Source: Chloroflexi bacterium HGW-Chloroflexi-9
GTDB taxonomy: Bacteria > Chloroflexota > Dehalococcoidia > UBA2979
DNA: 34,534 nucleotides
Direction: 5' to 3'
Assembly: GCA_002840675.1 (NCBI GenBank)
Contig: PHBR01000044.1
Coordinates: 1-34,534, forward strand
Shown: positions 8,322 through 27,630 of the stretch, piece by piece
Layout of the letters: each line of letters begins with the position of its first letter
Position numbering within the stretch: position 1 is the first letter of the stretch
The notes under the pieces: generated by a model
What the model saw: the letters and a program-made list of their open reading frames with translations, nothing else
Database searches by the model: none
Told to the model about the DNA's origin: nothing
Made by a program: the position numbers and the translations under genes

Positions 8322-9248
8322 ATGCGCGTCCTGGTCACTGGATCATCGGGCTTCGTCGGGAGCCACCTCGTCCGTCGCCTCGTGGCGGACGGGCACGAGG
8401 TCGCCGGGCTGGACATCGCGGAGCAGCGCCGCCCGTTCGAGGGCTACCGCGACATCCGCGCCGACATCCGCGACGACGCGGCGGTGACGCGCGCGCTGCA
8501 GGAGATCCGCCCGGAGGTGGTCTTCCACCTCGCGGCGCAGGTGTCCGTCTCCGTCTCCATGCGTGAGCCGCGGCTGGACATCGAGACGAACGTGCTGGCG
8601 ACGGTGCTGCTGGCGAACGCCGCCGCGGCCGCCGGTACCCGGCGGTTCGTCTTCACCTCCAGTGGCGGCGCCATGTTCGGCCAGCCGCCGGAGGTGCCGG
8701 CGACGGAAGCGACGCGGGTCGCGCCCGCCTCCTTCTACGGCGCGTCAAAGGTGGCCGCGGAGCGCTACCTCGCGATCATCGAGGCGGAGACGGGGATGTC
8801 GGTCGCCTCGGTACGCCCGTCCAATATCTACGGTCCCTGGCAGGACCCGCACGGCGAGGCGGGCGTGGTGGCGATTTTCGCGCAGCGGATGCTGCGCGGA
8901 CAGGACGTGACGATTTTCGCGCCCGGCACGGACACGCGTGACTACGTGTACGTCTCGGACGTGGTGGAGGCGCAGGTCGCCGCGGCGGCGGCGCCGAAGG
9001 GCGCCATGTGCCTGGTCGGCACCGGCGTGGAGACGAGCACGCGCGAGATCTTCGACTCGCTGGCCGCGCATTGCGGCTACGAGCGCCCGCCCGTCATGGG
9101 CCCGCGGCGCCCCGGCGACATCGAGCGGATCGCGCTCGACGCCTCGCTCGCGCGCGAGGTGTGGGGGTGGTCGCCGCGCGTGTCGCTGGACGAGGGGATG
9201 GGCTACACCGTCGCCGCGTTCCGCGGGGACTATGAGGCGGCGCACTAG
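8322..9248 (+). CDS. NAD-dependent epimerase/dehydratase (extended SDR)
   Basis: The 308-aa product has the Rossmann motif VTGSSGFVGSH (residues 5-15) and the TSSGGAMFGQP segment. The catalytic FYGASKVAAERYL supplies the Tyr and Lys of YxxxK, and VRPSNIYGPWQDP is the extended-SDR substrate segment. This layout is that of UDP-glucose 4-epimerase-like or dTDP-glucose dehydratase-like enzymes acting on nucleotide sugars for surface polysaccharide; the exact substrate cannot be read. It begins 3 nt after the sortase stop, so it belongs to the same transcript. Its TAG stop interlocks (CTAG) with the stop of the convergent selenoprotein gene. Confidence 0.9.
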   Translation: MRVLVTGSSGFVGSHLVRRLVADGHEVAGLDIAEQRRPFEGYRDIRADIRDDAAVTRALQEIRPEVVFHLAAQVSVSVSMREPRLDIETNVLATVLLANAAAAAGTRRFVFTSSGGAMFGQPPEVPATEATRVAPASFYGASKVAAERYLAIIEAETGMSVASVRPSNIYGPWQDPHGEAGVVAIFAQRMLRGQDVTIFAPGTDTRDYVYVSDVVEAQVAAAAAPKGAMCLVGTGVETSTREIFDSLAAHCGYERPPVMGPRRPGDIERIALDASLAREVWGWSPRVSLDEGMGYTVAAFRGDYEAAH

Positions 9249-10072
9249 CGTCGCCGGCGGCGCACCTTCGCCAGACCGGCCTGGATCAGATCCCGGTACT
9301 CCTCCGTGGAGCGACGGAGGCCCTCGACGTTGTCGAGGGTGATCGAGGCAGCGCGCATCGCCTCGAAGTAGAGCGCCAGCCGTTCGCCCTCCGGGAAGGC
9401 GTCCGGGTGGGTGGTGAGCCAGGTGCGTGCGTCCTCTTCTGACCAGAAGAGATTGTTGGTCCCTCAGGTGCCGCCGCGTAGCAGGTAGAGCGACTCCGGG
9501 TCGGTGCCCGCGACCTCGCCGCCATCGAAGCGCACCCGCATGCGCCGGTGCGTCTGGGTGCAGGCGTCCTCAATGGTGAGGCGGTGGTCGGGGTAGTTGC
9601 TGCTGACCAGCAGCAAGAAGTCCACCGCTCAGGGGACGTTGAACGCGGCCTCACCCTCCACGCGCACGGTGTGGAACTGCAGCCCGGTCCCTTCGAGGAA
9701 CCTCGACACGTCGTCCGCGATCCGGCCGCGGTGCAGGAACCCGGTGGCGGTGAGCACGCGCCGGGCGATGGAGGCGCCAGGGGCGTCCAGGCCCGCGCGG
9801 GTCAGCGCCTCGGTGAGCGGCACGCCGTCGAGGAGATGGCGCGCGACGACCTTTTCGTCCTCGGTGAGCGTCAGCGTGAGCGGGGTCGCTCCGTAGCCGG
9901 CGACCGGCTTCCACGCCGCCTTCGAGTGCTGGAGGACGGCGAGCAACCGCAGCCGCTGGGCGGTGTCGCGCGGCAGCCCGAGCGCTTCCTGCGCCTGCTG
10001 CACCGTGGACACGTCTAACTGGCGCCGCCATCGGCGCTTCAGCAGATCGAGCACGGCGCCGTCAGTCGTCAT
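9245..10072 (-). CDS. MerB-like organomercurial/organometal lyase selenoprotein with two UGA (Sec) codons
   Basis: Conventional translation stops after 147 codons at UGA 9631-9629. Reading that UGA and a second in-frame UGA (9466-9464) as selenocysteine gives one 275-aa protein ending at TAG 9247-9245. The join reproduces MerB: an N-terminal winged-helix-like part, then AFNVP-U148-AVD151 where MerB has AWC96-ALD99. Cys171 (EDACTQTH) aligns with structural Cys117, and GGT-U203-GTNNLFWSEEDARTWL aligns with the Cys159 segment. So both catalytic cysteines are Sec and the catalytic Asp is kept. MerB cleaves carbon-mercury bonds in the cytoplasm. Each UGA is followed 12 nt later by a perfect GGUC-loop hairpin. 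No merA or merR is adjacent. The ATG 10072 lacks a ribosome site; GATACT (10085-10080) seven nt upstream allows a leaderless start. Confidence 0.9.
9434..9451 (-). other. SECIS element for second UGA (Sec203)
   Basis: In the mRNA, 12 nt after the second UGA, CUCUUCU pairs with AGAAGAG in a perfect 7-bp stem closed by the tetraloop GGUC (DNA 9444-9441). A short stem with an apical GGUC loop 15-40 nt after UGA is the form of bacterial SelB-binding SECIS elements such as that of E. coli fdhF. Confidence 0.9.
9597..9616 (-). other. SECIS element for first UGA (Sec148)
   Basis: In the mRNA, 12 nt after the first UGA, UUGCUGCU pairs with AGCAGCAA in a perfect 8-bp stem closed by the tetraloop GGUC (DNA 9608-9605). 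Spacing and loop are identical to those of the second element. Confidence 0.92.
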
Positions 10073-10146: not shown

Positions 10147-10175
10147 GTTCCTCGGCGGGTGGGGTGGAGCCTTGT

Positions 10176-11654
10176 ATGCCGGGCGGTCGCACCTTCCGCG
10201 CGTCTGTTTTCGCGATCCTGCTCGTGGCGATGCTGCTCCCCCCGGGGCTCATCGGTCACCCGGCGTTCGCAGCCCCCGACACTGAGACCGGCCAGCAACG
10301 GATCGACGGCGAGCCGCTGGTTCCTGGCACGCTCGCGATCGTGAGAGGCGACGGCGATTGCCTGCGCGTGCGTGATACCCCCGGCCTGGCCGGGACCCGG
10401 ATCGACTGCATCCCGGATGGCGGGATCCTGACCGTCCTGCCCAATACGGCCGAGGTGGACGGCTACCGCTGGCAGTTCACCTCCTACCGCCAGACCACCG
10501 GCTGGGTCGCGGATGAGTTCCTGGAGCCTTACAACGGCCCGCCGCCGACTGATGGCTGCAGTGCCGCGTCCACGATTCAGCCCGGCTTCACTGGGGCCGC
10601 ACCGGCCGGGGGTGGCTTCGGGCTGGTCGTCTGGGGTGGTGGCACCACCGGCGGTATCCAGACGCTGGCCCTGTCGCAGGGCTGCCAGTTGCGGGCGGTG
10701 TGGGGCAACAGCCCTTCGGGCGGCCTCGTTGGCTACACCTTTGGCGCGCCGGACTTCGTGAACCGCAACTGGCTGGAGGCGTTCCCCGGGGGATCGATCT
10801 CCGCCGGCACGCCGCTGATGCTGGTCTGCCAGCCGCCCGGCTCCACGATCGCCTCCATCTCCTCGGTACCGCTGCCCGTGCCCACGCGGTCGGCGCCGCG
10901 GTTTAGCGGCAGCACGCCGGCGCCGGAGATCGATGCCCGTGCGGCGGTGATCATCGACGAGGCGTCCGGCGCGGTCCTCTTCGATCACAACGCCTACGAG
11001 GCGGTCCCCCCGGCGAGCCTGACCAAGATCGTCACCGCGGTGATCGCACTGGAGGCCGCGGACCCGGAGTCCTGGGTGCACGTCGCGGACGTGGACTACC
11101 GACAGATGCCGGGCAGCAGCGTGGTGGGGCTGGTCCCCGGCGACTGCTTCCGGCTGCGTGACCTCGTGTACGGGCTGATGTTGCCGTCCGGCAACGACGC
11201 CGCGCTCGCGATCGCCCGCTACCAGGCCGGAAGCGATGCGAGCTTCGTCCACCTGATGAACACGCTGGTGACCCGTATCGGACTCTCCTCCAGCCACTTC
11301 ACCGACCCGCACGGCCTCGGCAGCTCGGAGCACGTCATGTCGGCCTACGACGTGGCGATGGTCTCTCGCTATGCGATGACGCTGCCGATGTTCCGTCAGG
11401 TGGTCGCGGCGCGTTCGTGGACGGCGAGCGGCGACCGCGACCTCTCGATGCTGAACGTGAACTCCTTCGCCTCGCAGTACGCTGGCGGGGACGGCGTGAA
11501 GACCGGGTTCACGGAGGAGGCGGGCCGGACGCTCTCCGCCTCCGCCACGCGGGACGGGCACCGGCTCTACGTGGTGCTCCTGAACGCGCCCGACCGCTAC
11601 GGCGACGCCCGGGCGCTGCTGGACTGGGCCTTCGCGAACCACGCCTGGGAGTAG
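10176..11654 (+). CDS. D-alanyl-D-alanine carboxypeptidase (peptidase S11) with SH3-like domain
   Basis: The 492-aa exported enzyme trims the terminal D-Ala from peptidoglycan stem peptides. A signal peptide (about residues 1-32, VFAILLVAMLLPPGLIGHPAFA) is followed by a bacterial SH3-like domain (about 50-115, LRVRDTPGLAG to GWVADEFLEPY). A Gly-rich linker region comes next, and the S11 penicillin-binding fold starts near 250. The active-site motifs are Ser281-Leu-Thr-Lys284 (SxxK), Ser338-Gly-Asn (SxN) and Lys442-Thr-Gly (KTG). The SH3 domain presumably binds the wall. The GGTGGAG ribosome site six nt upstream fixes the ATG; the frame is open further upstream but without signal-peptide character. 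Confidence 0.94.
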   Translation: MPGGRTFRASVFAILLVAMLLPPGLIGHPAFAAPDTETGQQRIDGEPLVPGTLAIVRGDGDCLRVRDTPGLAGTRIDCIPDGGILTVLPNTAEVDGYRWQFTSYRQTTGWVADEFLEPYNGPPPTDGCSAASTIQPGFTGAAPAGGGFGLVVWGGGTTGGIQTLALSQGCQLRAVWGNSPSGGLVGYTFGAPDFVNRNWLEAFPGGSISAGTPLMLVCQPPGSTIASISSVPLPVPTRSAPRFSGSTPAPEIDARAAVIIDEASGAVLFDHNAYEAVPPASLTKIVTAVIALEAADPESWVHVADVDYRQMPGSSVVGLVPGDCFRLRDLVYGLMLPSGNDAALAIARYQAGSDASFVHLMNTLVTRIGLSSSHFTDPHGLGSSEHVMSAYDVAMVSRYAMTLPMFRQVVAARSWTASGDRDLSMLNVNSFASQYAGGDGVKTGFTEEAGRTLSASATRDGHRLYVVLLNAPDRYGDARALLDWAFANHAWE

Positions 11655-25300: not shown

Positions 25301-25942
25301 GTGAAGCTGTCGCAGACGGAGATCGACCGCGTCCTCATCTTCAACATCGCGGAGATGGCGCGCCGCCGGCGGGCAAAGGGCCTGAAGCTCAACTACCCGG
25401 AGGCCGTGGCGCTGATCTCGGACGAGATGATGGAGCGCGCCCGCGAGGGCGCCGACTACCAGGAGGTCCGGAGCCACGGCCTCTCCGTCCTCACCCCGGA
25501 CGACGTGATGCCTGGCGTCCCGACGCTGTGCCGGGGGCTCACGCTGGAGCCGATGTTCGAGGACGGGCCGCGCATCATCGTGCTGCCTGACCCGATCATG
25601 GGTGAGTCGCCTGTGGGCGCGCCCGGCGAGCGGTTCTTCGTGGACGCACCAATCGAGATCAACGCTGGCCGCGACGTGGTGACCGTGGAGGTCACCAACG
25701 GCTCCGACCATGTCGTGAACATTTCGTCGCACTACCACTTCTACGAGGTGAACCCCCGCATGACCTTCGACCGCGCGGCGACGTACGGGCGGCACCTGGA
25801 TATCCAGGCCGGCCGGTCGGTGCTGTGGGAGCCGGGCGAGACGAAGGCGGTGGACCTGGTCCCTTACGCGGGTGACCGGCTCATTGAGGGGTTCCAGCAG
25901 GTGCCGCCGCCGGCGGGCATCCCGTCGCTGGTGAAGGAGTAA
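25301..25942 (+). CDS. ureAB: Urease gamma-beta fusion subunit
   Basis: The 213-aa product joins the gamma subunit (residues 1-100: MKLSQTEIDRVLIFNIAEMARRR, LNYPEAVALISDEMMERAREG, VMPGVP) to the beta subunit (about 105-213: GERFFVDAPIEINAGRD, NGSDHVVNISSHYHFYEVNP, FDRAATYGRHLDI). Urease hydrolyses urea to ammonia and carbamate in the cytoplasm. Gamma-beta fusions are known in Helicobacter (named UreA there) and some other bacteria. The start is GTG with GGAAGGG nine nt upstream. The ureC start follows 2 nt after its stop. The promoter carries the shared nitrogen operator. Confidence 0.95.
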   Translation: MKLSQTEIDRVLIFNIAEMARRRRAKGLKLNYPEAVALISDEMMERAREGADYQEVRSHGLSVLTPDDVMPGVPTLCRGLTLEPMFEDGPRIIVLPDPIMGESPVGAPGERFFVDAPIEINAGRDVVTVEVTNGSDHVVNISSHYHFYEVNPRMTFDRAATYGRHLDIQAGRSVLWEPGETKAVDLVPYAGDRLIEGFQQVPPPAGIPSLVKE

Positions 25943-25944
25943 CC

Positions 25945-27630
25945 GTGCCGTTCCAGGTCAGCAGGCAGCAGTACAACCTGATCCACGGCCCGACCACGGG
26001 CGACCGCATCCGCCTGGCCGACACCACGCTGGTGCTGGAGATTGAGCAGGACTACGCCGAGTACGGCGACGAGGTGGTGCCCGGCTGGGGGAAGAACTTC
26101 CGGCAGGGGATGATGATCCGCGGCCGCCGCGTCGGTGAAAGCGAACTCGACACGGTGCTCGTCGGTGCGATCATCGTCGACCCGGTGCTGGGCATCTTCA
26201 AAGGCTCCATCGGCATCAAGGGCAACCGCATCGTCGCGATCGGCAACGCCGGTAACCCGGACATCGCGGACAACATCGACGCGCTGATCGGGCCGGGCAC
26301 GAACGTCACGCCGGCCGGCCACCTGATCGCCACACCCGGCGGCATCGACAGCCACGTCCACCTCGTCACGCCGCGCCTCATCCCGGTGGCGCTCGAGGGT
26401 GGGGTGACCACGCTCATCGGCGGCGGGCTCCAGCACCAGCCCGCGATGAACCTGCAGATTCCGCTCGCCGCGATGGAGACGTTCCCGGTAAACGTGGGGC
26501 TGCAGGCACGCGCCTCCTCGCACGAGCCGTCCGCGATGGATGGCTACATCGCGGCGGGTGCGTGTGGCTTCAAGGTGCACGAGGACATGGGCGCCTACGC
26601 GCCGATCATCGACGCGGCGCTCACCGTCGCGGAGGGCATGGACATCTCGGTCTGCCTGCACACGGACGGTCTGAACGAGGCGGTCGAGTTCAGCGACACG
26701 ATCGAGGCGACGCGCGGCCGCACGCTGCACGCGTACCACGTGGAGGGCGCCGGCGGCGGCCACACCCCGGACGCGCTGATGATGGCGACACGCGAGAACA
26801 TCATCGCGTCGTCGACGACGCCCACCGTGCCCTACGGCATCGGCGCGGTCCCGGAGCACATCGACATGATGTCGATCATGCACGGGCAGAACTACGGCCT
26901 CCCGGAGAACGTGGAGGCGGTGCGTCTGCGCATCCGCTCTACCTCGATGGAGGCGGAAGACCTGCTCCACGAGATGGGCGCGATCAACATCATCAACTCC
27001 GACTCGCAGGGGATGGGCCGCATCCAGGAGACGGTGCGCCGCACCTGGCAACTCGCGGACGCGAACAAGACGCGTGGCATCGCCACCGGCGACGTGGTCG
27101 AGGGCGCAAACGACAACGACCGCATCCTCCAGTACCTCGCCAAGTACACGATCAACCCGGCGATCACGCACGGCATCGCCGACTACGTCGGCTCGCTGGA
27201 GGTGGGGAAGCTTGCCGACATCGTGCTGTGGGACCCGCGCTTCTTCGGCGTGAAGCCGGAGACCGTGATCAAGGGCGGCCAGGTCGCGTGGGCTCCCCGA
27301 GGTGACGGCAACGCCAGCGCACGTCTCGCGGAGCCCGTGGTCTACGGGCCCATGTGGGGCGGGCTGGGCAAGGCGATCGACCGGCTGGCGGTGAACTTCG
27401 TCGCGGAGGCGGCGATCGAGGCTGGCGTGAAGGACCGCATCAAGTCCAACCGGGAGTTCCTCCCGACGAAGGGCGCGCGTGGCATCGGCAAGTGCAACCT
27501 CGTGCGGAACGCCGCGAGCCCGGAGTTGAAGATCGATGCGATGACCGGCGAGGTGTGGGCGGACGGCAAGCGGCTGGTCTGCGAGCCGCTGGAGACGGTG
27601 TCGCTGGGCCGGAAGTACCTGCTCTCCTGA
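25945..27630 (+). CDS. ureC: Urease alpha subunit (catalytic), divergent
   Basis: The 561-aa catalytic subunit keeps the nickel-site residues: His137 and His139 (DSHVHLV), Lys210 (GFKVHED; carbamylated in urease), His239 (CLHTDG), His265 (YHVEGAGGGH) and Asp353 (NSDSQGMGR). Substrate-side His212 and the catalytic flap His313 are also present. The flap Cys that precedes that His in most ureases (VCHH) is Met312 here (IMHG). The segment 160-200 is also unlike typical UreC. GTG start. No ureD, E, F or G follows; the next gene is a response regulator, so nickel insertion must depend on genes elsewhere, or this is a urease-like paralogue with another substrate. Confidence 0.92.
   Translation: MPFQVSRQQYNLIHGPTTGDRIRLADTTLVLEIEQDYAEYGDEVVPGWGKNFRQGMMIRGRRVGESELDTVLVGAIIVDPVLGIFKGSIGIKGNRIVAIGNAGNPDIADNIDALIGPGTNVTPAGHLIATPGGIDSHVHLVTPRLIPVALEGGVTTLIGGGLQHQPAMNLQIPLAAMETFPVNVGLQARASSHEPSAMDGYIAAGACGFKVHEDMGAYAPIIDAALTVAEGMDISVCLHTDGLNEAVEFSDTIEATRGRTLHAYHVEGAGGGHTPDALMMATRENIIASSTTPTVPYGIGAVPEHIDMMSIMHGQNYGLPENVEAVRLRIRSTSMEAEDLLHEMGAINIINSDSQGMGRIQETVRRTWQLADANKTRGIATGDVVEGANDNDRILQYLAKYTINPAITHGIADYVGSLEVGKLADIVLWDPRFFGVKPETVIKGGQVAWAPRGDGNASARLAEPVVYGPMWGGLGKAIDRLAVNFVAEAAIEAGVKDRIKSNREFLPTKGARGIGKCNLVRNAASPELKIDAMTGEVWADGKRLVCEPLETVSLGRKYLLS

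Follow-up and report, generated by a model that had tools for sequence, protein, structure and literature searches.

Evidence for selenocysteine at both metal-binding cysteine positions of a MerB-like lyase in a Chloroflexota genome

Introduction

The window analysed here, a stretch of 34,534 nucleotides from Chloroflexi bacterium HGW-Chloroflexi-9, contains a MerB-like gene with an in-frame UGA at each of the two positions where MerB has its metal-binding cysteines. It is very probable, in our judgement, that the product of this gene is an organometal lyase of the MerB type, and most likely one that acts on organomercurials, with selenocysteine (Sec) 148 in the place of MerB Cys96 and Sec203 in that of Cys159. 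The double-Sec reading of the gene is strongly supported, in the absence of any measurement of the protein or of selenium. The Sec positions, the hairpins that accompany them, the decoding machinery, the MerB fold and the mer gene context in relatives were all computed here. The window is a contig of a 2.5 Mb assembly of 151 contigs, which is 82% complete.

A MerB-like reading frame with two UGA codons

The minus-strand frame from 10072 to 9245 has 275 codons, and TGA at codons 148 and 203 are its sole interruptions. The frame and its two UGAs are confirmed as real, as is the continuation of the frame to a TAG codon that the original prediction had described. Translation with the standard code stops after codon 147, and so annotation that is not Sec-aware would, as had been foreseen, list a truncated protein of 147 residues. 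The gene has the following parts.

9245..10072, minus strand: double-Sec MerB-like lyase gene, 275 aa, with ATG at 10072 and TAG at 9247-9245
9674..10072, minus strand: N-terminal part, residues 1-133, an all-helical extension and a winged-helix-like part, conserved in relatives
9401..9673, minus strand: MerB catalytic domain (Pfam PF03243), residues 134-224, from Pfam and structure matches
9629..9631, minus strand: UGA codon 148, read as Sec, at the MerB Cys96 position (frame, MerB2 and family alignments)
9620..9622, minus strand: Asp151 codon, at the MerB Asp99 position (alignments)
9560..9562, minus strand: Cys171 codon, at the MerB Cys117 position, structural (alignments)
9464..9466, minus strand: UGA codon 203, read as Sec, at the MerB Cys159 position (frame, MerB2 and family alignments)

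When the 275 aa readthrough product is compared with PF03243, the match at residues 134-224 covers both UGAs and, at 31.2 bits, exceeds the gathering score of 27 (E = 2.4e-7). The PDB sequences contain one match to a seven-member family profile, MerB2 (5c17; E = 5.3e-8), in which the first ~60 residues of the window protein have no counterpart. Position 148 lies opposite 'W-C-AIS' and position 203 opposite 'GGT-C-KQIHYF', and the cysteines of these two MerB2 motifs are the equivalents of Cys96 and Cys159. The sequence around the Sec is 'PUAVD' at 148 and 'GGTUG' at 203. The equivalents of Asp99 (Asp151) and Cys117 (Cys171) are retained. This alignment upholds the earlier placement of the UGAs at the Cys96 and Cys159 positions with the aspartate kept.

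The requirement of MerB for Cys96 and Cys159 is not met, both codons being UGA and read as Sec; because this is selenium for sulfur at unchanged ligand positions, the protein is here called MerB-like and not canonical MerB. It falls far short of the two NCBIfam MerB cut-offs (18.2 against 193 bits and 16.7 against 200 bits). Two further MerB of Dehalococcoidia, whose scores are more typical, are likewise below the NCBIfam cut-off.

An AlphaFold model of the window protein has a mean pLDDT of 94.5. Used as the query of a structure search, this predicted model matched 11 PDB entries at E <= 0.001, all of them MerB. Its whole-protein TM-scores to MerB are low (0.27–0.34 by query length) because the N-terminal part differs from MerB. 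Residues 128-275 of the model superimpose on the MerB2 and MerB structures with 2.0–2.6 Å rmsd over about 115 columns, and the modelled catalytic part alone reaches a TM-score of 0.60 to MerB2 at 2.6 Å. As far as a predicted structure can tell, the expectation of a MerB fold in the catalytic part is met.

Gene neighbourhood and substrate

The lyase gene stands alone in the window, outside any mer operon, with an epimerase and a carboxypeptidase as its flanks. By Pfam, its eight neighbours are an AIR carboxylase, a c-di-AMP receptor, a sortase, the epimerase, the carboxypeptidase, an unnamed protein, an aminotransferase and a solute-binding protein.

10167..11654, plus strand: divergent neighbour, D-Ala-D-Ala carboxypeptidase (Peptidase_S11), a synteny marker outside the system

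The same divergent carboxypeptidase adjoins a homologue with Cys at both sites (Cys/Cys) in genome G187. Elsewhere in the window, at 25301-27630, urease beta- and alpha-like subunit genes were recognised by their translations among amidase and transporter genes. No MerA above the cut-off was found in the window genome at its 82% completeness, the best score being 138.9 against 454.

Some relatives lie among mer-type genes. The G458 relative belongs to the same clade and is also Sec/Sec; just upstream of it, on the same strand, are a CcdA-like gene and a MerA that scores 502 bits against a cut-off of 454. In G007 the order is ArsR, a MerB with Cys at the first site and Sec at the second (Cys/Sec), and MerA, with adjoining ends. 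The C-terminal Cys pair is kept in both of these MerA. In G163 and G284 the Sec/Sec gene has in its vicinity a CcdA-like protein, an HMA (MerP-like) protein and regulators of the MerR family and of the ArsR type. Also close by are a small membrane protein that contains CLPC and a rhodanese-CBS protein whose gene has two UGAs. The CcdA-like assignments were made by eye, without a Pfam or NCBIfam match, and the MerR-family protein is below the mercury-specific MerR cut-off (96.5 vs 150.85). The rhodanese-CBS protein (L044:3169-3867, minus strand; also L043 and L045) has its two UGAs in the active-site loop, VVVYUMDGLUDMS; the UxxxxU spacing is as for TsoB, but the score is 26 bits against a TsoB cut-off of 805.

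The presence of a mercuric reductase (MerA) above its curated cut-off beside two Sec-containing relatives supports organomercury cleavage. For the window gene itself organomercury is inferred as the substrate, by association in relatives only, because the gene stands alone and the genome shows no MerA; mer genes beside relatives with identities of at most about 40% leave the substrate of this copy undecided. The proposal of an organometal lyase with two Sec is supported as to Sec at both sites, and as to mercury it has only the association in relatives behind it.

Could a double-Sec MerB-like enzyme have a substrate other than organomercury? It might act on another organometal(loid), or use the MerB fold in a metal-binding, chaperone or redox role. 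The solitary gene without mer genes or a MerA above the cut-off leaves room for this, as do the additional N-terminal helical region and a weak match to the copper chaperone NosL in the fold search. Another double-Sec subgroup has Glu for Asp99, so the chemistry may vary. Against this, the Asp99 and Cys117 equivalents are retained in the window's own subfamily, MerA is on the same strand in G458 of the same clade, and the G163 and G284 genes are in a metal-resistance island. This alternative survives better than the others that were weighed and is still improbable; a MerB-type organometal lyase, most likely acting on organomercury, remains the preferred reading.

Conservation of the UGA codons

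Are the UGAs true stops, and the locus a pseudogene or the gene of a truncated protein of 147 residues? TGA is the ordinary stop of nine of the 29 window genes, a usage that led us to reject an alternative genetic code and that would agree with true stops here. The homologues speak against such stops. In a class-wide sample seven of 393 genomes, the window genome included, had a homologue match; all three sampled genomes of the genus and 5 of 44 of the family have the gene. Two TGAs are present in the homologues of G310 (82% identity), G227 (57%), G236 (split over two contigs), and G163 and G284 (39–42%, with two copies in G284), and the identity of homologues with two TGAs ranges from 39 to 97%. 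All Sec/Sec relatives that were found have both UGAs at the same codons, which are thus kept down to about 40% identity. The syntenic G187 homologue (53% identity) has no TGA, and carries TGT at 148 and TGC at 203. Homologues with Sec or with Cys at the two positions therefore both exist, and the homologues extend beyond codon 147, with either readthrough or Cys at both sites. The named homologue records are Chloroflexi or Dehalococcoidia MAGs.

In comparison with the 82%-identical congener, each of the three segments that the UGAs delimit has a dN/dS of about 0.2. All three, and so the whole frame across both UGAs, are under purifying selection. With readthrough homologues and this dN/dS, a pseudogene or truncated protein was rejected; together with the covarying hairpins described below, this makes true stops barely credible, and the gene is taken to be a double-Sec lyase read through to its TAG.

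A mobile origin was also considered and rejected: 72,556 plasmids gave no match, and among viral contigs no relative could be confirmed. One Sec/Sec relative (L046; JADFPE010000328.1, 3,017 bases) is on a short contig labelled Acidobacteria, which could be a binning error.

Selenocysteine machinery of the genome

The components needed for Sec decoding, for which a search had been suggested, are present in the genome. A tRNA-Sec was found at 71.4 bits (cut-off 47) and was called SeC by ARAGORN. SelA (550.6 bits), SelB (287.4 bits) and SelD (356 bits) are all above cut-off, although the SelB gene is incomplete where it runs into a contig end. The SelD gene (L019; G000:C144:5560-6498, minus strand) has an in-frame UGA of its own near the start, SCAGUAGKMG, and SelD is probably a selenoprotein.

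Identical UGAs are found in independent assemblies, including JAQCKI, JAQBZW and JAUXUW, and for this reason sequencing error is ruled out in practice. That UGA is reassigned to or read as another amino acid (e.g. Trp or Gly), or results from assembly errors, can be set aside, since nothing was found in its favour, the homologous residue is Cys, the Sec machinery is full, TGA is used as a stop and the independent assemblies agree. Neither a lack of machinery, nor homologues ending at codon 147, nor TGC or TGT in place of the UGAs, the three results that would have refuted the original prediction, was encountered.

SECIS-like hairpins

Downstream of each of the two MerB UGAs, at nearly equal spacing (about 12 nt), there is a hairpin with perfect pairing and a GGUC loop.

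9597..9616, minus strand: SECIS-like hairpin for Sec148, TTGCTGCT-GGTC-AGCAGCAA, 12 nt past the UGA
9433..9452, minus strand: SECIS-like hairpin for Sec203, TCTCTTCT-GGTC-AGAAGAGG, with seven inner Watson-Crick pairs that begin 12 nt past the UGA

A hairpin was scored when GGTC, enclosed by six or more pairs, lay 17–22 nt after a TGA. Only two of the 771 TGA triplets in the window satisfy this criterion, and they are the two catalytic UGAs; 0.04 such hairpins per strand are expected in shuffled sequence. The criterion was fixed after the first two hairpins had been seen, so the homologues are the real test. In all other loci collected at that stage it is satisfied by 52 of 10,843 TGAs, and all 52 are at MerB-family UGAs (some of these loci are duplicates). 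The G187 homologue, with TGT and TGC, has neither hairpin.

For the five stem pairs common to the hairpins, 98.3% of cells are paired. Four of the five vary on both sides, with 26 such cells compared with 6.1 in shuffles. At the closing pair CGG (Arg) is found with TCG (Ser) and TGG (Trp) with TCA (Ser), so that the synonymous base of the Ser codon tracks its partner. The hairpins and their covariation are positive evidence for Sec decoding, beyond what the original prediction had offered; there are no SelB-binding data.

A scan of the window with Rfam at the gathering threshold gave no match, so that by this standard the hairpins match none of its curated families. When the genome was searched with a covariance model for the MerB SECIS (R1), the two sites already known were the only ones recovered. 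This model is dominated by coding sequence and therefore says little about other selenoproteins.

Selenocysteine and cysteine states in the wider family

The wider family was sampled with PF03243 across the class and with NF040728 across the phylum. Its MerB-like proteins carry 0, 1 or 2 TGAs and are nearly all from Chloroflexota. At least one TGA was present in 25 of the 49 MerB matches of the class-wide Pfam scan. The 59 proteins that were aligned comprise 26 Sec/Sec, 14 Cys/Sec, 19 Cys/Cys and no Sec/Cys forms. Since TGA-bearing loci were fetched on purpose, the proportions of Sec among these 59 are biased upward; this choice does not explain the absence of Sec/Cys. Sec at the Cys96 position is always accompanied by Sec at the Cys159 position, without exception in 40 Sec forms, for a reason that is unexplained.

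In an alignment of 31 proteins, 30 from the window's phylum and one from a contig labelled Acidobacteria, only columns 148, 203 and F209 are invariant. On a quick tree the window's clade (support 100) has eight Sec/Sec members and one Cys/Cys member. The Sec and Cys states require 10 changes on this tree, far below the 26.8 obtained when the labels are shuffled, and the order of gain and loss is unresolved. Of the 35 genomes with Sec forms, 32 had SelA above cut-off, as did 8 of the 14 with Cys forms only (Fisher p = 0.011, uncorrected for relatedness). Among the three Sec-form genomes without SelA above cut-off, two have a completeness of 72%; in the third, G169, a fragment of SelA lies at the edge of a contig.

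Further Sec/Sec subgroups were noted. A second one has Glu at the Asp99 position (QUGFE; L067, L069-L073, L075, L078, L080, L081, L089 and L090), and its chemistry may differ. In a third (AAUAVD ... FURKxxFFWSEEH; L082, L083, L084, L086 and L087) the first UGA is followed ~19 nt downstream by a hairpin with a CGTGC loop and the second UGA by a GGUC hairpin. One Sec-type MerB copy (L085; G366:C10:140947-141147, minus strand) is interrupted by a TAG and by a shift of frame, and is possibly a pseudogene or an assembly error.

Proposed mechanism

The active site of MerB is lined by Cys96, Asp99 and Cys159; these residues hold the mercury, the part played by Asp99 being accessory (PMC4525700). In the window protein, each UGA would be decoded during translation by SelB and Sec-tRNA, directed by its own GGUC-loop hairpin about 12 nt downstream. 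On the analogy of MerB, both selenolates would then coordinate the Hg of R-Hg+, its bond to carbon would be weakened, and a proton from Asp151 would release R-H. On the same analogy, Hg(II) may be held on the Se pair until it is taken by thiols or an acceptor. These catalytic steps are inferred, as are mercury as the substrate of the window copy and any advantage of selenium over sulfur.

Among small molecules, selones cleave the Hg-C bond more rapidly than the corresponding sulfur compounds (PMC11639659). Sec at both Cys positions should give stronger mercury binding. That Sec speeds the enzyme is an inference, and tighter binding could instead slow the release of the product. A bolder possibility, which we hold to be unlikely without dismissing it, is that the window gene represents a widespread and so far unlisted class of double-Sec organometal lyases that, where the genome has no MerA, as here, act as self-contained detoxifiers. 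These would cleave Hg-C and hold the Hg(II) or pass it on as Hg-Se species, possibly inert HgSe, without giving it to a mercuric reductase.

Implications

The chemistry of MerB rests on two soft metal ligands, and here both are changed to selenium, whichever way gain and loss proceeded. With Cys/Cys, Cys/Sec and Sec/Sec forms in one family, what is gained by Sec over Cys outside redox enzymes can be tested on a single scaffold.

There is also a consequence for surveys of methylmercury breakdown, which are likely to miss Sec forms. Standard gene callers stop at the first UGA, and in a published merB survey homologues were filtered for Cys96, Asp99, Cys159 and Cys117 (PMC8261052), so that Sec forms would be missed or discarded. 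Given the frequency of TGA among the class-wide MerB matches, the extent to which microbes of these groups degrade methylmercury may be underestimated.

Comparison with known systems

A 2026 review lists 119 prokaryotic selenoprotein families and subfamilies, among which the MerB-like entry is SaoL, with one Sec (PMC13188914). SaoL (NF040728; SAO system; Haft and Gwadz 2023) is, according to that review, also a MerB-like protein with Sec. It is given there with a single Sec in a 'CU' motif (PMC13188914), whereas the window protein has two, in 'PUAVD' and 'GGTUG'. Membership of the SaoL system, which had been raised as a possibility, is unsupported: the window protein scores 15.7 bits against the NF040728 cut-off of 140 and lacks the single-Sec CU motif, and identity with SaoL was rejected. 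None of 400 genomes of the phylum passed the NF040728 cut-off. No published description of a MerB with two Sec was found in a literature search that did not include the original SaoL paper.

The UxxU metal-binding protein NF041115, a putative mercuric transport protein and HgcA/HgcB are also predicted to have Sec at a presumed soft-metal site; their folds and functions are unrelated, and none of them is a metal-carbon lyase (PMC13188914).

The closest known systems are MerB of the R831b type and MerB2 (5c17). The window protein shares with them the catalytic domain, in sequence and in predicted fold, both metal-binding positions and the Asp99 and Cys117 equivalents, and relatives of its gene are in mer-type neighbourhoods with MerA. 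It differs from them in having Sec at both metal-binding positions, an extra N-terminal helical region, a stand-alone gene and scores far below the NCBIfam MerB cut-offs.
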